DNA of 64,000 bases from Ectocarpus siliculosus (Eukaryota > Sar > Phaeophyceae > Ectocarpales > Ectocarpaceae). The notes under the pieces are model-generated. The model did not search any database and was not told the DNA's origin. It worked only from the letters and a program-made list of their open reading frames with translations. Made by a program: the position numbers and the translations under genes. Location: NCBI GenBank assembly GCA_000310025.1, contig FN649727.1, positions 164,980 to 228,979 on the forward strand, read 5' to 3'. This document shows, piece after piece, positions 2,243 to 58,800 of the stretch. Positions within the stretch are counted from its first letter, which is position 1; each line of letters opens with the position of its first letter.

Positions 2243-5200
2243 TCACAAGCGTGTGTAAAGGGTTGGCGTCAACGTGTACCTTCTCCGCTCCATCTCCTGA
2301 CTACGCCTTGCATCCTCCTCAGCTCCATGTCGCCGCGCCGTTTCTCTCGAGAGCCTCGCCTCCAGCTCTTGCACCCTATCCCAAAGGTACCGCACAACAC
2401 CGCACAACCACATTGCGCAATAACGTCGCACCGAGTTCGGGCGTGGCAGCGGTGAGTGGGAGTGACCCCGTCGGTTGGAGTGAGCATGAGAAGAAAGTTT
2501 CTGGTAGACAGCAACGGCAGGCATACGACGGGAGCTGGAGAGGAACAGCGCCTCACAGCATTCTCTCCTTGAGGAAATGACAAAAGCGACAAAAACGTCC
2601 TTCATCGAAACCCACCTGTATCGAAGCGCGTGCAAATCATCACATTTCTGGTCCAATTCGATCCGTCGCCGCTCGTCCTGTTTAGCTCTCGATCGCTCTG
2701 CCGCACGCCAGCGCTCCTGTTCTGAGCTCATGTGCTTGCGAAGATCTACGTTTTCTTGTGACATGCGCTTGGCCTCCCGCACAAGCCTGGGAGTGGGCGT
2801 CATACAAACGTCGGTGCACAATACAGAGCGAGTTGTTGGGTCCCCGAACCTACTCTCCAAGAGGGCAACGTGACTGAAACGCACAGGTACCTTCTCCGAA
2901 ACCACCACCTCGCTTCCGTTAGATCTTTCGGCGGTGCGCAAGAGCAACCATGACTCTCAAGATATCAAGAACCAGCGCGAACCTCCCATCTTCAAAATGA
3001 ACGGACGAGGAAGACACGCGCATAAAAAGAAACACTCTTACCTTGCGAGTTTCTCCCGCATTTCTTTGACCTCCAGCCCTCGTGCGTCTGCCAATTCTCG
3101 GAGCGCATCCACTTGTCCCCCTACGGTCTTCGCCTGCGCCTCGAGCCTTTCGTTCTCTGCAGTACGTCTGCGGAGATCCTCCAATGCGCCCTCCATCTTA
3201 AGCCGACGTTCGTCCAGCTGCCGCTTGCTCTCGTGCGCCTTATGGTGCCACGGATGGGTCAGCCCAACGGTTCACATGGAAAATGTTCGGTTGGGCCAAT
3301 TCCCGTTGAGTGCATTTCAGGAACATCAATGTAACTCAGTCATAAGCCCTAAGGCCCACGCTTAATGTCGTTACGATATTGCGTTGCTTGAACCAACGTG
3401 TGACCTATTCGAAAACCGGAAGGCCGAGTCTTTAAATCAATGCGTCTATTGTACCGTTCACTCCTTCGGTTAGTAGCCGCCTCCCGCGACAATCACGAAA
3501 CCAATTCCTCAGAAAACTAGGGTCGCTTCCGCCTCGCCGGCTCCTCGGCGATATTAACCCCTTGCAGTGCTACACGCTGCCGTGTAGACTTCAAAGGTAG
3601 CGGTTCACAGGAAAGGGGGCAGCACCAACGAAGCGGTAGCAGCGCACCAAAACGGGAATCCACCTGTCTCTGCCGCATGCTGAAGCACGCCATCCATAGA
3701 CTGTTGTACCACACGATACCGCCATCGTCTTCTCAGTCCATTGAGCTCACCTCTTTCTCTAGGACCTTGCCTCTAGCCTCCAGAGCTCGTCCAGACTCAC
3801 ACGCCCTCCCTAGGACCTCCTCCGCCTGCACCCGGTGCTTTTCCTCTTCCCTCGCCCACTCGAGAAGCCTGGCGAACCGTGCTTCCGCAGCCTTCGTCCG
3901 CCCAACCTCTGCCTTCGCCGCTTCCGACTCTGCGCGGACACTTCTCTCGAGCGCTTCGCAGCGGCCCTCGAGCCTTGAAATCGTTAGCGAAAGGCCATCT
4001 GCGGGGCGCGAGGGGAAGCATGGACGAGGTGACGCGCTCATCCCGGACTAGGGTGAACCCTTTGCAACTGGCACTGGCAGAAAGTACCGTAGGCGAAAGA
4101 AAACACCACACCCCCTGGACCGGTTTTCAAAGCTCCATTACTCCACGAAGAGGGTACCAACGTCAAATGAGAATTCTCAGGGAAGCTCTCGACGAGACGG
4201 ACCCAACGCCGCCAAGTTCGGCACTGTCAATCTTTCTGCTGTGGAGTAGTTGAGAGCTTTGAAGTCGGTGCACGGGGTGTGATATCTTATGCCACCTATC
4301 GTAGGATTGCTGGAACGACAGCAAGGGTTTTCGCTAGGGCCGGAAAAGGCGGGGTTCAGGACAACAACCGTATGTTGTGCCAAGGTACATGTCGTCCAGC
4401 AATCCACCCAAATCGCCCACATGCGTGCATATGTTCATTCAGACTTTGGGATATGTATGCCAAAAGCGGGCGGAGTATGTGCCACAGGTAACGCCGAGAG
4501 AACCCGGTGTCGTGGCATCCAACCATCCGAGCGCCTACAACAGGCCGTTCTTCGCCCCGAAAGAGAGACAGTTGTTTCCTCCCGACGGAGCTCACCGTCT
4601 CGTAGCTTCCAAGCGGCGCGCTCCTGATTCGCAGACGCCACGTCTCTGCGGAGGTCGTCCATCTCCCCGACCGCCTGCCTGCGAATCAAAAGCAGGCGGG
4701 GAAAACACAACGGTGCGCAAGTGTAAAAACGATCCGTAGTTAAGGCGGACGTGTAAACCATCCGCACCATATCAAGCCTCCGCTTTGCCCTGATGACGCT
4801 CACGGTCAGGTGGGTTGCTTTGTTGAAAGCAGACGGCAAATTCAGGAGTCATCGAAGGCATCGAAATAATTCGTTCCATCTCTGGCGACAGAATTTGTGA
4901 CAAGCGGCGAACTGAACTGCTCGTGACTCGTCGATCGCACCGTAGCATCATCAGTAGATGTTTCCGGTCCGATCCGCGTGACACGCCCCTCCTAGTGCCA
5001 GCAACGCCCGCCTCGCGATCATCAGATATACAGGGCCCTTCCGCTGCTCGTTCAGCTCTATATCTGTCTCTGTCTCTGTCTCTTGAGTGCGGGGATTTGA
5101 CTCCGCCGGCGCTCCTGCTCGGAGACACCCTCTCCTTCCGGTGACTCCTGTCTCTCGCTGATTGTGCGCCGGCCTTAACCTGTGAAGACGCTTCTGCTGC

Positions 5201-36137: not shown

Positions 36138-37330
36138 TCATTGTGTAACAAAGCCCTTGGGTCGTTTTAATCTCGTCGGCTCCATGCTGATGGCGTCCGT
36201 TGTTTTGCCCAGAGTCTTGCTGTGCACCTCGCGGAACTCTCTTGCCGCCGAGTTGTACTTGTAAAATCCTGAAGCCTACGTGCGAATCGTGTGCAAAGAC
36301 GTTCAAAGGTCCGACAAGTTGATCAATCAACGAATGCAAGAGACGAGGTGCCGGCGCCGGCGTTGCGCGTCAGAAGACATGAGGAGGCCCGGCGCCAAAT
36401 GGATGCTCATGAAAGAAAAAAAGGATAGCCACGCCCCCTCGCCACCCATGAAAGATCGATGGACCCACCCAACTCAGGGTATGCTTGTGGTGGGCTCAAA
36501 ACAGTTCCGAATCCTACAGAAGTAGCTCGCGAATACTCCGCACAGATTCCCGACAACTCTGACGGACTTTTTCCCGATGAATGCGTACATACACTAGCAC
36601 GGATGGAAGGCTGCTCACGCCTGCTATGTCTCACACTCACCATGGTGGCATCCACATGTGGAGGACCAAGGCCAAAGACACGATCCGCGGAACCGTCGTC
36701 CTCCCCGCGGCATGCGTACAGCCCTTTGAACGAGAGGAGCTTGGTGTGGGCTAGCAAGACGATGAAGTTAGACGCCGGATGGGAGTCCAAAGCCTGGTGG
36801 GGAGTATAGCGGAGCATCAGTTAGTATGGAGCAGTAAGAGACCTCACACGCCCCCCCCCCATGATCAAACCCTTCACCTGCACCCATTGTCGTGTTTCCT
36901 TGGAAAGTTTTTTCAGTAGTTCCCCGTGGTTTGTACTGTTTAGTTCAAAAGGTTGTAAAAAATAATTTGGTCGGACGGGGCGTGCGTAGGTACCAAGACC
37001 AGCCAAGAACGGACGATTAACAAGGGGAACCACGCAATGGCGCACCACTTAAAGTACTTGCAAGATGTACGGCACGTCGGGGGAGGAGGAGTCAAAACGT
37101 CTGGAATCTCTCTTCACACCGGGTACGAGATAGCGCGCAGAAAAAAACGACACCCAGAGAGATAGAAAGATGTGTTTTCGTCGCGCCCTAAGGAGACCCC
37201 CGAGATCAACCCAAGTAATGCAGTCTACGTTGTATTGCCCACATGAAGCACAAGCTCCCATACCTCCAACGCTCGCGCCTTCCTCTCCTGGAGATGCCCC
37301 CCGGCCAGGCAAAGAAAATTGATGGCATTT
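36138..37330 (-). other. CKK domain spread over three exons
   Basis: The domain starts in the fifth exon (about 37370-37264), continues through 36793-36641 and ends in 36275-36138. The hydrophobic and aromatic pattern, the central GLGPP-type loop and the Y-K-Y-N-S stretch match the animal CKK consensus from memory. Together with the phase-0 junctions this gives firm support for the 3' half of the gene. Confidence 0.9.
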
Positions 37331-40300
37331 CTCACCAGCTTCCGGTTTGAGCGTCGTGACAGGCCTCGGACAGCGGGCGAGGCAACGCGCCCAGCACCCG
37401 GCGTCGGCAACTTTGCACCACCGCCACCGCCACTACCATTGCTGTCGCCGAGGACGCGGGTGCCCCCTCTGACGGAACCGTCATCGTTTCTTGGCACACT
37501 CGATGAACGGGGTCGCAAAACCGACATTCCTGGGGAAGTCTCTTTTCCTTTATTTCGCAACACCGATGCGTCGACCGCAGCAGACGCGTGGTGTGATGAA
37601 TGTGGTCGCCGCGGGTCGTTGTTCGAAAATTGGTAGTGTTGTTCTCGGTCAGCGCCGGGAGTTGTAGCAGCGACAGCAGCAGCGGTAGCAGCAGCTTCTT
37701 GTCTTCGCTGTTCCTCTCTTGCCGCGACTTGCCGTTCTTTCTGGCCTCGTCTCCGTTCCTATGTCCATAGCAATAACGCACAAAGGTTTCAAGACGAACG
37801 GAGGCCTCCTCGTTGCACGGCAACCCTTAGGTTTTTTCTGGCCTAACCACTCTGGTTTATATCATGTCTCGTACGTACGGCATCAGCTTGGTCGCAAACA
37901 AGTTATGGATCCCACTTACTTTTCGGGAGACCGATCAGAGCCAAGGCTGAAACATCCGTCGAACTTTTTCACACCAGTGCGCTTTCAGGCTGGGCTTGGT
38001 ATAAGTACGGAGGTGAACACTTGCGGCGAACTACACTCACCTCTGCCTGCACCAGTTTCCTCGCGCGCAGGGCTTCGAACCTCTCTTGACGTCGAACCTT
38101 GTCTTGCTCCCTACTCAAGGCTCCATCCAGCCGCTCCGCCCGGCCCCCAAAACCATCAACATCGACATCGAAGCTCACCGAAGGCGGGGTTGGCTCCCTC
38201 TTCGCAGGCCCGTAGCCCTCAAGGTGGGTCTCCTGCTGGCTCACAACTCGTCGCCAGGGGTTTTCGGCTGCGGTCGCCACGCCACGGGCGCCTTCTCGTT
38301 CGGTTGGTGGCGCTGGTGCCAGAACATCAAGAGTTGTCTCTTTGCCGACAACAGCGATGCCCTTTTTAGGCGCAGCGATGTCGGGTCGGATGGCCTTCAC
38401 TGAAGTGACTTCAGTGAGATGGCCCACGACTTCCGGTGGCCGGAATCCCCACGCCTTGACAGACTTTTCAGGGTGGGACGGTGATGCCACAGTTGTACCT
38501 TCTGCACGATCCCCGGGCACTTGCAAGTCACTCATCTGGCCGTTTTCAGCGGAAGGTGCTGACTTGTGGGGGGGCAGTTGTTGCGCTGGGGAGAAACTTG
38601 ACCGGGCCGGGGGGCTTGATGTGCGTCGCTGACAAAGGTGCTTTACTCTCTTGAACACCTCCGCACCTATCCGGGCTCTCCTGAGCCTTCTTTCTTCTTC
38701 CCGTGCCTGAGCGGCTTGCTCAATGATATCTCTCTGGCGTCGGACCTCCATCTGAAGCAACAACCGTGCTTTCGATCGGTGCCGCTGCGGAGAAGAAGAA
38801 GGAGAAGAAGAAGATGAAGAAGAAGGATTCCGACCAGTTTGTTGTGCCACTACCGCCGCCACCGCTCCCGCAGCATTTTCTGCGCTAGCAACTTCAGTTC
38901 CCGTCTCGTCGCCCTCATTAGGCTGTTGCCGTTGAGGGGTGTCCGGCTGCCCAAACCACACAAAGTCCTGGTTTTCCGAAGGGTTCCCTGTTCCACCCAA
39001 TACGTGTCCCTCCGCCGACCCTGCGCCACTTGTTACACCGGTCCCAACACGATCTAACCAATCCGCACCAGTGACGGGAGGCGGTGGTTCTACCGGCGCG
39101 GGTGCCATATCCGACGCGCCACCAGGCACGCTTTCCAAGCACAGCGCAGATACACCATCAGCCTGACTTTGGTGCGTTTCCGCCTTCGGTCGGCCCGAAT
39201 CGGCGGAAGCGAGGGTGGTGATGGGAACGCACCCAGCAACGGTGGTAGACTTACCTTTTGACCGCCCTCCTCCTCCTCCTGATCTTTCCGCTTCGCGGGC
39301 GTTTTCGTCATTTCTAGGCGGGTCTAGAGAAGCACAATTGCCGCTCCGGCTGCCCTTCTCGGTGTCACAACCGACTCGCGCCTCCCGCACGGTGGCAGCA
39401 CCTTCTTTGGGTGCCCTTCTAGGTCCTTTGCTCTTCTTCGCCTGACGGCGGGCTCGACGTTGTCCGTTCGTTCCATCACTAGGTGTCACCGGTTTATTCG
39501 GAGCGGCGCTAGCGCGGTCGGAGTGATCGTCGCCGTTCTCGTCAGTAACGACCCCAGCTGCACCACCGCCTGCTGGTGTACCCGACAAGTCGGGGTCCTG
39601 CCTATCTTCCTCTAAATTCCTATCGTCGTGTTGTTGTACGATCGTTTGTTCTTCTGTCCATGCCTCTCTCGGACGCGAAGGCACAGTAGTGGTGGCCGGA
39701 GGCGGAGGCGGCGACTCACTCCCCCTCATATCGCCACGGAAACCCGTCAGCCGTCCTTCACGGTGGTCGCCGGGAGTACGGCGGGCATCTGAAGAAGTCA
39801 ATCCCAAATTCCGACCGGCTCGCGGGGCGCGAAGTCCTGACCGGAGTCCCTCTGACGGCGGTGTCGTTTTCTCCGATTTGGTGATGTGTGACGCAACATC
39901 GGCGGCCTCACAGACACCGAGGTTTTGGCGATCACTGTCGCTTGTTGCGGCGAAAGCGGTTCTCTTTTCGTCACTTGTTGGAGGCGACCGCCTGCCGGTT
40001 GGCCGGAGGAGTTGTGGAGAAACAGGAGGAGGAGAAAAGGGCGTGACCGGGTCGGAGCGAATATCCATGCCTACTGGACCACTCTCCGTTCCCCGCAATT
40101 CTTTTGTGTCGGCTTCCACTGCAACCGATGCCGTGGTACCCGCTCCGTCTGAATTTTTCTCTGACGACGACGCCATCATGTCTAACTCGTCGGTGGCTGG
40201 CGAAGTGGTCGCTCGGTGGTCGTAGACCTGATTCGCCGACCGTGATAGCTGGTGGAATGATTTAGTCTCGGGTGCCAGGTACTCGTCGGGCTCTGTCCTG

Positions 40301-43274
40301 TCTTGAATGACCCCGTGTGTCCGATAGACGCTGTAGGCGCGCCTGCTGTACTCCGCCAGCCCCTCGCCTTCGATCGACCGAAGGAGGGCACTGGACGACG
40401 ACGACGATGAAAATTAAGGAGCAGGGGGGAGAAGAGGATTCAATGCGCATCATCAGCACGGTACTAGCACACCGCCGCTACACAATGTACTTTCGATCAT
40501 GCCCTTGTGAGGTAGGTACCAAACGCGTTGTCTTACCGGTGCAGGGGGTCGTCGCGGACCGTCGTGGTGCCGGGACGACTCGGCAGGCAGACGCCTTTAT
40601 CAATACTTCTGTCTCTAGGACGCTTGGCCGTTTCGTTGTGTGCGTTCCCGGTCGAAGGCAGTGAGACTTCTTGTTCTCTCTTCGAGGCTGTCGCAGGGGT
40701 CTCTCTCGCTGTCGCAACGCCTAGGCCACGGCTACGTCCGCTGTCGACAGGGAGAATAGTGTCATCCTCCTCGGACCAACGTCGTCGTCGGTCCTCCTCC
40801 CTCTGCGATCTCCGCAAAGAGAGAGGTGGAGAAACGTCCGTTGCCGGAGGACGAAGGTTCCGTCGGCCGGCCGACGAATCGCGAGAGGTCGAGATTACAT
40901 TCCCGTCGTCGGCTGCTCGTCGGTCGTCGAGCCCAGCTTCGAGCGAGATTGAGTGCAACATGTCCGGTGTTACTCCTTCAGCGACATTCCCAGCCACATC
41001 TTCACGGTGTGGGTTTAGAGCTCCTGCGCCACCACCGCCAGGGGGTGATGTTTCGGCAAGAAGGTTGGATCGCTCCGAGATTTCGTCAGGTTGCTCCAGA
41101 TGACGGTAGCTGTGCACGCTTCGTTGAAACAATCGTCCCCCCGTGGATGGATTGTTTCTTTTGTCTACGTTCTCAAGCCCACTTGCCCCATCGGTTGATC
41201 CAAACATGCCAATCGATATAGGCGCGGAGGGAGCCAGGTGCTGTTGTTGCGATGGTTTTCGTAGCGCCTTTCGGAGAGCCTCTACCTCTTGCCGCTTTAT
41301 TTTGATGGCCGCAGCTTTCTCGGCCTTCCGCAAAGCCGTGACTGCCGATGCGAGGAGGAACGTTCAGGTTGTCGTGAACAGCAAGGCGCGACAGATTGGA
41401 CTTTGATGGATCAGCGGGGATACGAGAGAGGTACAGCGCTAGAACACCGGTCTTGCAGCTCGTGAAGTAAAGTAGGTATCACACCTTTCTACATGACCAT
41501 GCCGATGAATTTTCGCTGTTTGAGTGGTCTAGCATACCTGACATGCCAAATGCTCTTGCAACGGCATGCCTGGAGTGCAGCGGAGTACCTCAAAGATGAC
41601 ACGTATCCCATCGACGACACCCTTGTACTCTCATTCAATAGATCATCACTCATATGGCCACAACTGCTGTGTATCCAAGCTAAACCTACCGCTGTCTTCC
41701 AGCATGCGCCTCGCAGCCAAGTCCACCTCGTGCTGTTCTGCTCCCCTCCCTTTCGCTCTCATCACCACCGATAGACCCACCAATTCCTTCTTCAACGCGC
41801 CATCCTCCTGCGACCGGCCGCTGCTTCTCCAGATTTCCCCCAACGCCGACAGGAGATGCAGCTGGAGACCCCTACTCTCGAATTGAAAAGTTCGACAGAA
41901 GAGATGGACACAGCAAGGGTATGGGGTGGTTCGGATATCGGCTTGCCGTTGAATGGCGCGACACGGGGACACTATCTGTCTACGTGAGAGTGTTCTATCC
42001 GCCTTGCATGACGTGCGTACTTTGTTTTGTTGTAGGAAGTAGTTGAATCGGCTTCCTTTATAGTCGTGTATGCAGTTCTCACACCTCCAGCATACAGACT
42101 GGGGTGCCCGGTGGGTGAAAACAAAAAAACCAACACTGAAAACTCTCTCCGGTTTAGTGCGATTCTGTCGCAAGTGGTACTCCTGCCGTACGTAGTCGAG
42201 AGACAAGCTGTGTTTCGTGGTTCTCAATTTCCAAATTAGGAGGGCACGGGGTCAATGTACTTCCTTGTAATTTCTGCGAGCATAGCATATTTCATTTCTG
42301 CCCTACAGCAGTAATGGAATATCCTCGTGCATTACTTTTATTTGCGTTTCGCACCTCGTTTTACGACCAGTGAACTTCGCGTCTTTGCCTCTGTGGAGCA
42401 AGTACTTGACAGACAAAGGGTATTTCTCGTGAATAACAACAAACAACAACACACCCAATTTGCGAAGAGTGCGGCTCGTGTTGCCGTAGTGCAGAGATTG
42501 AGGGCATGTTCACAGCACTGAGGTCGAAGATCTACAGACACACTGTAGGGTGCGTGTACATCAAACGTCCCCATTTTGCGGGAACAGTTACCTGACAGTA
42601 GTGAATTTCACGATGTACGACCCGCGCAACTTCATTGCAGGCCGTGGCCACGGGTCAAATACTAGAAAGTCGCACCCACACGACCCTCCCTCCTCCACCG
42701 CTGGCAGAGGAACAGAGCACACCACTAAGCTCTCCCCACCAGAACTGACGAGAAAACACCACTTCTCGCGGTTGCAAGACTCCAGAGCGGCGTTCTTGAG
42801 GGCGTGTATCTGTCGCAGCAAGAGAGTCTCGTCTTTTTCCGCCTCGGCATTTCGCGACACCCGTATCTCCCGTCCGATGCACGTTAAGCGGTTCCCGAAG
42901 ATCCCCCGAACCTTGGCCAGAAGGTCAGAGACAGGAGCTGTTGCGAGGTCTCTTCGTTTGGATCTAACAGTCCCGGCAAGGGCTGCAGCAAGCCGTCCCC
43001 CGAGCTCAGCGGCACTCCCCATGATGGTTTCGACATCACCGGCAGATATCGCAATCCCGGTGGTAGGCCCAGTACGGCCCAGTAGTATACCACCATCGAC
43101 GACGTCATCGACCGTTGCGTTTCGAGCTATGGGGTAGTGCGATATGAACCGATCTGCGAAGCTCAGACAACATAGCGTTGAGGATGATGCCGGGAGATCG
43201 CCGCGAGGTGGGAAAGTGCCCAAGGTGTCAGGTGCAGTCGCCGACACAACCTTGTCGAACACGGACGAAAACAT
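36138..43274 (-). CDS. CKK-domain (CAMSAP/Patronin-like) microtubule protein, 7 exons, about 1601 residues
   Basis: Exons right to left are 43274-42592, 41871-41690, 41341-40537, 40390-38041, 37758-37264, 36793-36641 and 36275-36138. All six junctions keep phase, and the sum is 4806 nt. The last three exons encode a full CKK domain, which binds microtubule minus ends in CAMSAP/Patronin: SNRKLVRNAINFLCLAGG, then NFIVLL...FKGLYAC, then FGLGPP, then GFYKYNSAAREF, SKTLGKTTDAISM and the stop at 36138-36140. Just before it is a charged segment rich in Arg, Gln and Glu, likely a coiled coil. The 783-codon exon and the exon before it are Ser/Pro/Gly-rich and probably disordered, with a helical patch (RRQRDIIEQAAQAREEE). 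The first exon encodes a folded-looking domain ending in FLVFDPWPRPAMKL and GSYIVKF. It is not the calponin-homology domain of animal CAMSAPs, and I do not recognise it. ATG at 43272-43274 is taken as the start. Confidence 0.9.
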
Positions 43275-45886: not shown

Positions 45887-46220
45887 GTAAGTGTACGGCA
45901 GACTTCCCTAGGGTAGATAGAGACACTTGTGCTTACTCATATTGCGCGTGGGAGGTGCCACGGAGATACTTTCAAGTCAAGACCCATAAGCTCAGGTTTG
46001 TCGCGTTATGGTCGAGTACTGCTACTTGTGAGCGGTGACATTAGTAGTTTCAGTGTGAAGGGCGCTTCAGTTTCCGATACTTGAGCGTTGTGATAACTGC
46101 ACTCTGTCATCGAAGGGATTGCACCCGCTCCCGCATGTTGCTCCTTGGCCGAGGGCATCTTGTGTCCTCTCGGTGTCAGGCAGCCATGCAGACGCTGCTG
46201 CCGTAAAATTCCCTCCGTAG

Positions 46221-48519
46221 AGCTATCTTGCTGCCCAAACAGTACGATGCCCAAACAGTATGATGCCCCATATGGTACGATGTGCCGTCCACCTTACTCA
46301 GATGAGGCATTCGCGACATCGCCTCACTCATTTCTTTGGATTTTCCCCACACCTGAAGACGACTCGCTGGCGCTGGACGCGGAAGGCGAGGAGACGCAAG
46401 ACCGGCGACGACGCTCGAGATGCCTTTCGTGCTCCACTGCTCTGTCGGACAACGCAGCGGGTACCGATGCCTCGGAGACGGAGAGGGCGCGACCACAATG
46501 CTGCAACGCGCAAGAGAAGAGGGACCTAGTGCTGGAGAGCATGCTGCGATGGGCGGTGGATGTTCATTTCAGGCAGTGTTCTCGGCTACTTCAGGCGTCG
46601 GTGAATCGAGCCGTGTGTCACGGCGTTCGGCAGGCGCTCGTGGCCGCGGAACTGTCAAGGAGACAGGCGTCTCCTCCGTCTTTTCCACTCGGGTGTCGGC
46701 TGCTGCTGTCCTTCGTTGGTGGGCTTGCGGGGGACGGCGGTGCTCAGATTGCCGGTTTTCTTCGGGAACGGTGCGGGGCCGAAATGCGGCGGTTTCTCAC
46801 TCGGGGTCGGTGGCGGCCCCCATCGGGAACAGCTAGAGGAAGGAGACATGCCGATGCTTGGACGGCCACGGGCAGGGGGGTGGCACGACGGCAACCGGAG
46901 TTACCCATGCTGGACGCCTACGTGGGCCACCTCTGCCTGTGCCGACATGTCAGCGACCCCTTGTCGGCGACGCATTTGGTGTGGCTGGCTCGGCAAGCTC
47001 TTGCTGTGCTCCGCATGCTGGACATGCCGGAAGAAGGTGCGCCAGGAACGACCGCGGCACCCGAACGGCGACAAAACTCGAACTTCGAGGCTGTTCTGGC
47101 GTCTCTCTCGCACGCTCTCGCCTTGCTGCTGACGCGGCCGAAACGGGGCGGTGTTTGCAGCTCTATCGTGCCTGAAACTGTGGGCAATTTGCTCGAGATC
47201 GTTTTCGACAGCGACCCCCGCCCGTTGTCGTGTGTGCCGCGGCCCCTGGCGGAGGCAGCCATCGACGTGCTCAAAGAGGCGGGCCATCTTCAGCTCGCCC
47301 GATCGGACGAGCTCCTAAGACTGCCATGGGGTTCGCGTCGAGGAGAACCGAACGCGGCGGGTCGCCGCGAAGAGTCAAAGCTAGGACCAGTCGCCGCTAC
47401 CGTTACCGAAGAAGGCGCTTCTTTTGCGAGTGGCATCGATTTTCAGCGGGCGAGTCTCGCCTTTCGAAATAGTTGGTCCCTCGCAGCCGCAGGGGTCGAC
47501 ATGCAGCTTCCCTCGACAAACCACTCAGGCCGAAGCCGGAGGGGGGACGGCGGAGGGGATTCCTCAGACAACACCGATAGCAGCGACGACGACGACGACT
47601 CGGCTGATGGAGACGTAGACGGCGCCAGAGCAATCGCGGGAAACGGCTGGGGCCGCGTGCCGGACGAGGTGACCCTGCGCGTATTTTCGTTCATGACGCC
47701 GAAGCGAGTCTGCCGTCTCGCTTGCGTGGATCGCGCTTGGAGAGAGCTGCTCACCGTGTCCGGTGTGTGGAGGCCCTTCTTCGAGGCACGCTGGCCCTTA
47801 ACGGCGATTGGAAGCGACCTGGATCTGGTGGGAGTGTCGGACAGGCTCTTGGCCGAAGGTTTGGGCTCGGCGAGGAAGAATGCGAAGCGTAGGAGAAGGC
47901 ACGGGAAGATCGGCGTTGTTCACTGGCGAACCTCTGAGGTATGTACTAAGACAGGTTTTTATTGCCGTAGTCATGATCGTGAAAACCTGCTGTGCCGTTT
48001 TTGATACGATTCTACTGTTGCTGTCGTTTTGGCTACGAATGGTCGCAACTTGTTGTCGGCTATCGTCGAGCATCATCACAACGACACTCCGTATTTGTCA
48101 TTGCCGGCTGGGCGTTTTTCCTGCTCCTGTGGAACACCCAATATTGGGCTGACGGCACGGTAGCGCACCACCAGACAGATGTCTCAATGGATTCTCGGTG
48201 CTTGCCATTGTGCTTTTTTTCTCGAAGCGCACGATGTGTCAAACCATAGCTTGTATAATTTTGCGCTGCTCGATACTTAACTCAGTTGGTGATGGCACAA
48301 TTTCGCAAACCCCATTTGGACCAACAGGATACCAGCGGGCAGCAGCAGCCTCTGCTAGAGCGAGATTGGATGGCGCTGTACCGAGATCGGCATAGGGCCG
48401 AAAGGGCGGCAAGAGGAAGGTTCGCCGCTAAGACCGAGTTTCCGTGGCTCGTGTGTCCATTCCTGGGGTGCGTGTCCTCGCTCAAGTCCGAGTTTGCCGT
48501 GAAGGTGCGAAGAGGTTGA
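46221..48519 (+). CDS. F-box protein (substrate receptor of an SCF ubiquitin ligase)
   Basis: The large exon (46221-47938) and a second exon (48286-48519, after an actcag acceptor) join in phase 0 and end at TGA 48517-48519. Counting from ATG 46247, the product is about 641 residues. A standard F-box lies near residues 470-518 (RVPDEVTLRVFSFM, then RLACVDRAWRELL and WRPFFEARWP), which should bind Skp1. The N-terminal 350 residues are helical and rich in Leu, Ala and Arg, without a named repeat; an acidic Asp/Ser run precedes the F-box. The second exon has DWMALYRDRHRAER, then CPFLGCVSSLKSEF, which looks like the first half of a C2H2 zinc finger. The donor-like AAG|GTGCGA just before the stop leaves open a further exon. 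The start may lie in the exon at 45622. Confidence 0.8.
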
Positions 48520-55816: not shown

Positions 55817-58800
55817 TCGTATTTCCTGTCTTGTCAGAAAACCGACAGCGATGTACACCGCACTGGTGGCGCAGCAGGAAGGGGAGTACCGCTACGTTAA
55901 CAGTCGATTACTCACCAACGCGCAAGGTGTGTGCGGAGAATGTTGTCCGATCCGCGAGACCCCTTGAGGTATCGCTAAACCCCGGGAGCAGCGTATCTCT
56001 TGCTTAGCAAGCCGATTTTATGCGAAGCTGCTGAAGTTCGTGCGCTGTTTTGTTGACGTACACGATCATCCCGCGCTTGCACAATGCCACCCCTCAGCCA
56101 TGTCTTTTGTTCTGAATCGTCACAATTTTGTCCGCCCATCCCTCTCCGAGCAGAGATCGCGTTCTACAAGGGCAACACGAAGGAGAAACAGGTGCTGGAA
56201 GGGGTTTTCGACAAGCTGGTGTCCGTCACGAGGCGATCGGAGAGGTTCCGACACTCTCTCGGTGCCCTGGACTCGGTGGTGGCAAAGTACTTCGCTAGCC
56301 TCGTGGGCTGGACGGTGGTGTCCCGTCCCTTCGTCAACAGGGACCACCCGAGACACGCACACAGCACCGCGGCTGAGGTCTACCAAGGTGCGTGCGTGTC
56401 ATACGGAGCACGTGGTACAGTAGCGACGCTCGTTTCTTGAAGGTTCCCTATCCACAACACATGATACGCTGAAGACAATGAAGGACATAATTTGCACAAA
56501 ATCTGGTTTCTCTAAACACAACATATGATACGCTCAAGACAATGAAGGAAATTAAAATGCTCGGTATTTGGATTTTGCGGGAATCATCCTGTAGGTTTTA
56601 TTTTAAATCGGAATACCGGGTCCCCCCTTAATTATTTTTTTTTTCCGATTCTCTGAGAGAAGCCGCCGAACAGATTCTTGCGGCACTCTTGTAAAAGAAA
56701 AAGAAAATTACCTGCTGCGCTAGAAGACGCTTTTTGACACGGTTGCAAGCCAACCCGCCTTTGTCACCTTCACGATAGTGCTGACCATGCGTCAAGAGTG
56801 CAAGTTCTTAGTTGGTGTTTTGAGGAAACTGGCTGCGCCCCGCGTCTCCCATTCTCGCGTGCCTCCAATCTATCCGTCTTTTCTCGCCTGTCGCACCACA
56901 AGACTACCACTCGAGCGGCAGGATGATGCTCAAGCTGGCGGCAGCCCTCGGCCGCCTGGTGCTCTCCGGCCGAGAGCTAGCCCGCCTGTCGGGCTTCAGC
57001 TCTAGGGTCACGGGCCTCATCGACGTGATCGACGACGCCAACAGAGGCGTTTTCAAGAGGGGACAGGTGCCGAACAGCCCCGGTGCCGCTATCCCTGGAG
57101 CGGCGGTGGCGGCGGCGGCGGGAGCCACCGCAGCGGGCGCTGACGGTCCCTCGGCGGCGTCAGTAACAGCGGTCGCAAACGCTACCGCAGCAGCAGAGAT
57201 TGCGGCGGCGCCTGCGGCGCGGGCGGCGGCGAGAATAACGCCTCCTCGACGAAACCCCGGGGTGTCGGGGGTTAACCTCGCCACGGAGGAGGACGGGAAT
57301 TCGCCGAGTTGGGCGGCGGATGAGGGGGGACGAGAAGGTGCGTCCGGGGAACCCGGCCGTATCGGCAACGAGGACGGCGACGTTTCTGGGACGATTCCGC
57401 GGCTGACGTCCTCATTGTCGGAACCTGCTCGCCCATCGTCGATCTCACGTGCACCCGCGGATGGCCATCCCGCGATGATGGCCGGAACGAAGGCGTCGGC
57501 GGTAGGAGTAGCCCTGGGGCAGCCCGAGCTCGAGCCTGAAGCTGCTGGTGCCGCGAGGGCCTCGGAAGCGGGGGCGGGGGCGGGGGCGGGGACGGGGGGG
57601 GTAAGCGGGGGTGGTGGCGGCGGCGGCAGGCCGGGCGCGCCGCCGCTGCAGCGGTCGGGGTCGGTGGTGGTGCAGGAGGACAGCGTCATCGAGTTTGTGG
57701 ACGTGCCTCTCGTGACCCCCACCGGGGAGGTGCTGGTCGAAGCCCTTTCTTTCAAGGTAGGCAGGCATGTTTGGTCTTGACAAGGCCGGTTCTACCTACT
57801 GTATGTATCGCGAAGAGGACGACGGCAGAATACCATTAACTGTACCGCTAGCGAAGAGGACGTCGTGGTGTAAGTGAAAAATAAGTTACTCTCTGGTGCG
57901 GCGCGGCGTAGAACAAGATGGCAAGGGGGTGCGAAGATGTGATCGATAGATGGCTCTAGGCTCCTTCCGGCGTGTTGTACAATAGCCATTTCATGCATCA
58001 TGGCCACTCTCACGGGCACGATCCATGAGCCACCCAGGGCAGAACCACATATTTTTTGCTGTTACATTAGCATGCTGCCCGGCTCGTGGAAGAGGCGAAA
58101 GCGTATGTCCTCCCTAACGCCGACTCGTAGTAGATTAAGCACGCCGACCTCTAAGGAGGGGGGGTCCGCAGATTGGATAATAGGGTCCCCGGGCGATCTG
58201 ACGCGCCAACTCCCACCGAGTTTATGCTTGTTCTCAGAAACTTGCCAGCGTGTTGGTTGTTCCTCATCCCCGTCGACTTTGTCGTGACAAATGAACGAAA
58301 TACCTTCTTGCGCCAGAACTACCTCTCGAGTGATGAAAAACAAAAGCTTTTGTTGTATTGTTGCATTCTCTCGAATGTGTAGAGTATTTCAGTGATTGTA
58401 TGTAAAGTACATTTTCTAACAACTGACTCTGAAAGGATGAAACAATTCGAACTACCCCCCCGGTCATTTTCTGGAAGGAAAGGTTGGCCATCCGTGATCG
58501 GTCCTGTGGGAACAATGCTCCATCCTCTCGAGGTCAATAGTCTAACAACTGAGGCATGCGAAACATGAGTATGCCCCCCCTCCCGCCGGGTCATTTTTCT
58601 CTTGGGATTCCAGGTGGAGGCGGGCATGAACGTGTTAGTGGCGGGGCCGAACGGGTCTGGAAAGTCCAGCCTCTTTCGAGTGCTGGGGGGCCTGTGGCCG
58701 TTGCGGGGAGGAACGCTGTCGAAACCGCCTACATCTCGTCTGTTTTACGTGCCCCAGAGACCCTATTTGGCACTGGGGACCCTGCGGGACCAAGTGATCT

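Follow-up and report, generated by a model that had tools for sequence, protein, structure and literature searches.

A probable gene of seven exons lies on the minus strand of a 64-kb stretch of Ectocarpus siliculosus DNA (64,000 nucleotides, the window hereafter), running from position 43274 to 36138 (Table 1). Splicing of its exons gives 4806 nt, which translate into 1601 residues and a stop codon with no internal stop. The six introns all start with GT and end with AG, and the reading phase is consistent at all six junctions; in gene order, the exon coordinates give intron lengths of 720, 348, 146, 282, 470 and 365 nt. The splice sites and the open translation bear out the claim of an earlier note on this DNA that seven exons join in phase into 1601 codons, and the stretches that it quoted for the first exon (REKWCFLVS, SLVVC and FDPWPRP...GSYIVKF) are all present in the exon 1 translation.

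Table 1. Exons of the CKK gene and other open frames and matches in the window.
Feature	Position	Strand	Content	Basis
Exon 1	42592..43274	-	Residues 1-227; N-terminal domain with C35/C36, V58-V59-D60-G61-G62 and F206-D207-P208-W209	Translation; no Pfam cut-off reached
Exon 2	41690..41871	-	Residues 228-288; GLQLHLLSALGEIW and start of charged helix-prone stretch 272-325	Translation, composition
Exon 3	40537..41341	-	Residues 289-556; remainder of stretch 272-325, then probable disorder	No Pfam family up to E 0.1
Exon 4	38041..40390	-	2350 nt; residues 557-1340; mostly hydrophobic-poor, probably disordered	No Pfam family up to E 0.1
Exon 5	37264..37758	-	Residues 1341-1505; remainder of stretch 1307-1374, then start of CKK (residue 1474)
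Exon 6	36641..36793	-	Residues 1506-1556; middle of CKK, including loop 3
Exon 7	36138..36275	-	Residues 1557-1601 and stop; end of CKK (residue 1586) and tail
Antisense frame over exon 1	42502-43137	+	Open frame of 211 codons
F-box-like frame	46097-48001	+	Open frame of 635 residues, with an F-box-like domain towards the end	E 1.1e-7, 31.9 bits (cut-off 24.3)
CENP-H profile match	2246-2956	-	Weak match, probably a mere coiled coil	E 0.0023, 18.3 bits (cut-off 29.9)
Further open frame	56824-57777	+	318 codons	No Pfam match up to E 0.1

The F-box-like frame lies 5' of the CKK gene, on the opposite strand. The end of the 318-codon frame resembles the beginning of an ABC transporter nucleotide-binding domain. 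Scans of the 64-kb window for tRNAs and Rfam families both returned 0 matches, and in a search of the window for a paralogue of the CKK gene only the gene itself was matched (E up to 1).

The C-terminal part of the protein is readily identified. The CAMSAP_CKK family (PF08683) matches residues 1474-1586 with 91.9 bits against a cut-off of 27 (E 3.9e-26), covering profile positions 8-118 of 119, and is the sole Pfam family above cut-off in the whole protein; the domain is clear and complete, as had been claimed. At E ≤1, matches to this part in the PDB comprise seven distinct sequences, namely chains of CAMSAP3 and CAMSAP1, the CKK of Naegleria (6quy), and 1ugj, an entry under a RIKEN name. The CAMSAP3 and CAMSAP1 CKKs are matched at E 4e-17 to 3e-11, with CAMSAP3 at 4e-17, and the alignments give 34% identity to CAMSAP3 and 29% to CAMSAP1. 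The gene thus very probably encodes a CKK-family protein, predicted to bind microtubules.

Whether this domain also selects microtubule minus ends is a separate matter. With human CAMSAP1 positions assigned by hand in the alignment, N1492 is conserved (N1484 here), R1528 is replaced by Ala and R1535 by Lys, and loop 3 exceeds that of human CAMSAP1 by one residue. According to PMC6868217, mutation of N1492 to Ala in the human CKK raises microtubule affinity and lowers the choice of minus ends, and the CKK of Naegleria, whose loop 3 is likewise one residue longer, binds the lattice without preference for minus ends; that of Phytophthora infestans, named beside Naegleria, appears to behave in the same way. 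The protein had been proposed to be a lineage-specific minus-end regulator. Given the residue changes, the length of loop 3 and the behaviour of the Naegleria CKK, minus-end regulation should not be assumed here.

Ahead of the CKK domain, a simple composition rule (rather than a coiled-coil predictor) picks out charged helix-prone stretches at residues 272-325, 1089-1147 and 1307-1374, the second lying in exon 4 and the third beginning there. The first and last span the exon 2/3 (residue 288) and exon 4/5 (residue 1340) junctions, as expected if both junctions are real, and so favour a single protein. The alternative is that the model fuses two adjacent genes, with exons 1-2 (perhaps 1-3) separate and a CKK protein that begins in exon 3 or 4. 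The length of intron 1, which exceeds that of every other intron, would suit such a boundary, as would the weak coding signal of exon 1 in the codon-use test described below. This reading is nevertheless unlikely, given phases that fit throughout, GT-AG borders at all six introns, and a helix-prone stretch that runs on across exons 2 and 3.

The codon-use test itself is a weak one. In exon 1 the sense frame has a better score than either of the other forward frames, a result matched by 2 of 1000 base shuffles, and one reverse frame outscores the sense frame; in exon 6, which lies inside the CKK domain, a reverse frame likewise comes out on top, and in exon 2 another forward frame ties with the sense frame. 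The open frame antisense to exon 1 is probably a shadow of the sense frame. Since the window holds 24 stop-to-stop frames of at least 200 codons, the length of an open frame is in itself little proof of coding. Taken from the sequence, exons 1-7 are likely to form one gene, with exon 1 being coding.

The N-terminal region (residues 1-288) differs in composition from what follows. Its share of hydrophobic residues is 33%, twice the 17% found in residues 289-1100, and it therefore looks folded, in agreement with the impression recorded earlier; GLQLHLLSALGEIW in exon 2 is the probable end of the domain. No Pfam family reaches its cut-off in residues 1-288, NCBIfam gave no match for a 213-residue core, and a PDB sequence search with the 288 residues gave none either. 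Two shorter N-terminal pieces had no Pfam match up to E 10. Two stray matches were judged to be due to chance, namely Phage_holin_7_1, which stayed below cut-off (E 0.036 to 0.081 with exon 1, the 288 residues, the 213-residue core and the whole protein), and a lactate dehydrogenase (E 0.76), the lone PDB phmmer match of the strand region.

In animal CAMSAPs, a calponin-homology (CH) domain occupies this position. None of the Pfam lists up to E 10, in which the HMMER filters drop most matches above about 0.1, contains a CH family, whether the query was exon 1, residues 1-288, any of three sub-pieces or the full-length protein. The gene therefore encodes a CKK protein without a detectable CH domain, and the earlier statement that none is present stands to that extent.

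AlphaFold2 was run twice on exon 1 without an alignment, and both models are of low confidence (mean pLDDT 36.7 and 39.2). Both place helices at 115-129 and 148-165 and strands at 172-178, 181-189, 201-206 and 220-224; over residues 81-224 the order of elements in both is helix, helix, strand, helix and four strands, with F206 ending the third of these four. As both models come from the same program, their agreement is not independent. In Foldseek searches with the two models, 0 of 468 and 0 of 540 matches reached E 0.001 or better. SseL, PopP2 and an OTU deubiquitinase appear in these lists at E 0.25 or worse and were set aside at such model confidence. Structure prediction followed by a fold search had been proposed as a check on the N-terminus; run on exon 1, it yielded an alpha/beta pattern, at the low pLDDT values given, but no match at E 0.001.

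On these models, the N-terminal domain is predicted to be of alpha/beta type; it is not recognisably CH. It could instead be a CH domain that has diverged beyond recognition and carries a small alpha/beta extension, as the position of the CH domain in animal CAMSAPs might suggest, together with VDDVVDGGILLGRTGP, which bears a faint likeness to the D-L-x-D-G-x-x-L stretch found in CH and HOOK domains. We consider this improbable: CH domains are all helix, whereas strands are predicted within residues 131-224 (at low confidence), and the profile lists described above hold no CH family.

A different lead comes from the viral-tegument-like deubiquitinases (VTDs). As described in PMC9741609, VTDs are papain-like and have a Cys and an Asp-x-His pair; in the helitron VTD, the Cys (C322), the Asp (D451) and the His are each required. 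Insect VTDs missing active-site residues are also described there, and K6-specific VTDs are proposed to have entered the precursor of alveolates and stramenopiles (PMC9741609). The helitron VTD structure 8ADD contains VLQKGD and FDSHSR...SGTAVMLTF; the N-terminus here contains VVDGG and FDPWPRP...RGSYIVKF, which follow a Cys pair in the same order. By hand count, 22-23 residues separate the Cys from the first V, compared with 26 in 8ADD. The Cys to Asp distance is 171-172 residues as opposed to 129 in the helitron VTD, about 42 more. A pattern that fits both 8ADD and the N-terminus, a loose one written by eye after the sequence had been seen, occurs in 76 of 20000 shuffled versions of residues 1-288, and 870 of 20000 contain its second half by itself.

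Direct comparisons do not add to this lead. Local alignment to two 8ADD stretches scored no better than chance, with 866 and 1771 of 2000 shuffles scoring as high, and left the motifs unpaired. Pfam lists up to E 10 contain no VTD-type family, no VTD chain in the PDB was matched by sequence, and no VTD is found among the best 50 of the 468 or the best 50 of the 540 Foldseek matches. The VTD catalytic motif is itself absent; the counterpart of Asp-x-His is D207-P208-W209, and for this reason the domain is not filed as a VTD. The vague likeness to papain-like or OTU-like folds that had been remarked upon thus agrees with the motif lead, which is of the VTD type, but is confirmed by no sequence or fold comparison.

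If the domain is of VTD type, the change of Asp-x-His to Asp-Pro-Trp would suggest binding without cutting. From these motifs it can be suggested tentatively that the fold is a papain-like one of VTD type in which the catalytic His has been lost, and that the domain binds ubiquitin or a relative but does not cleave it. The enzymatic activity once suggested for this module would, in a VTD-type domain, meet a broken Asp-x-His. That the domain is an active cysteine protease or deubiquitinase with substrates on microtubules is accordingly very improbable; Cys 35/36 sits at the start of a helix (34-46) in one of the two low-confidence models, which would suit a protease, and the other model has only a helix at 40-43, while the helitron enzyme needs all three residues and the His residues otherwise closest to D207-P208-W209 are at 157 and 233.

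Relatives of both halves were sought in viral contigs and in bacterial and archaeal genomes, collections in which the absence of a eukaryotic gene means little. For the N-terminus, none of eight pattern stretches in the viral contigs and one of 172 in the prokaryote genomes was confirmed. The latter (L030, 33% identity, with an E of 3e-6 that is counted against the candidate stretches only) was judged to be chance; it is one short gapped stretch antisense to a 782-codon frame that looks lon-like by eye, and it also contains DFLVFDPW, a pattern used to select candidates. As no relative was accepted, the reading of the N-terminal domain rests on one sequence. CKK relatives were found in 0 of 55 stretches in the viral contigs and 0 of 50 in the bacterial and archaeal genomes. 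Searched as a DNA pattern in the viral contigs, FDSHPRP occurs at 29 loci, and inspection by eye of all 29 showed no VTD-like surroundings. Thirteen of them share a short frame, ...FARNRGFDSHPRPMLH... (L005, L007, L010, L011, L014, L016, L017, L021, L023, L024, L025, L026 and L028), which may be a single-frame reading of a tRNA-like stretch.

CAMSAP/Patronin proteins of animals combine a CH domain, coiled coils and a CKK domain, and their N-terminal half probably acts in docking to a partner. The protein described here shares with them the C-terminal CKK, at the identities given above, and a layout with a long low-complexity middle and charged helices ahead of the CKK. It differs in having no detectable CH domain, in the Ala and Lys at the R1528 and R1535 positions, and in its loop 3. 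With the proteins of Naegleria gruberi and Phytophthora infestans it shares the occurrence of a CKK outside animals, which has already been published (PMC6868217), and with Naegleria also the longer loop. Its N-terminus resembles VTDs (PDB 8ADD, 8ADC and 2J7Q) in the order of Cys, V-[VL]-x-x-G, F-D-x-x-x-R and G-[ST]...F, as read from the 8ADD stretches, and departs from them in the Trp at the position of the catalytic His, the additional residues between Cys and Asp, and the lack of a significant sequence or fold match. In a partial survey of the literature, no published link was found between CKK proteins and either a deubiquitinase-like domain or brown algae; a CKK domain with a non-CH N-terminus is possibly a new domain arrangement.

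The reading that we prefer, and regard as reasonably probable, is that of one gene that encodes both a CKK domain and a non-CH docking domain. By analogy with its family (PMC6868217), the C-terminal CKK would bind the microtubule wall, and the charged helices before it would probably serve in dimerisation or strengthen the binding. Between these helices and the N-terminal domain there would be a linker of some 750 residues, probably disordered. The N-terminal domain, by analogy with animal CAMSAPs, would most likely serve in docking, connecting microtubules with a partner. The likeliest candidate for its fold may be the VTD-type papain-like one minus the catalytic His, reading ubiquitin or a relative that is left uncut. 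The fullest version of this proposal, in which a VTD domain without its catalytic His is fused to the CKK and replaces the CH half of animal CAMSAPs, making a microtubule-associated pseudo-deubiquitinase that reads a ubiquitin or ubiquitin-like tag, is more doubtful.

A different N-terminal module on a CKK protein would show which half is ancient and which has been exchanged, and would offer a fresh way to study the anchoring of microtubules in such cells. Should it be true that this module reads ubiquitin, the protein would form a direct link from ubiquitin signals to microtubules.
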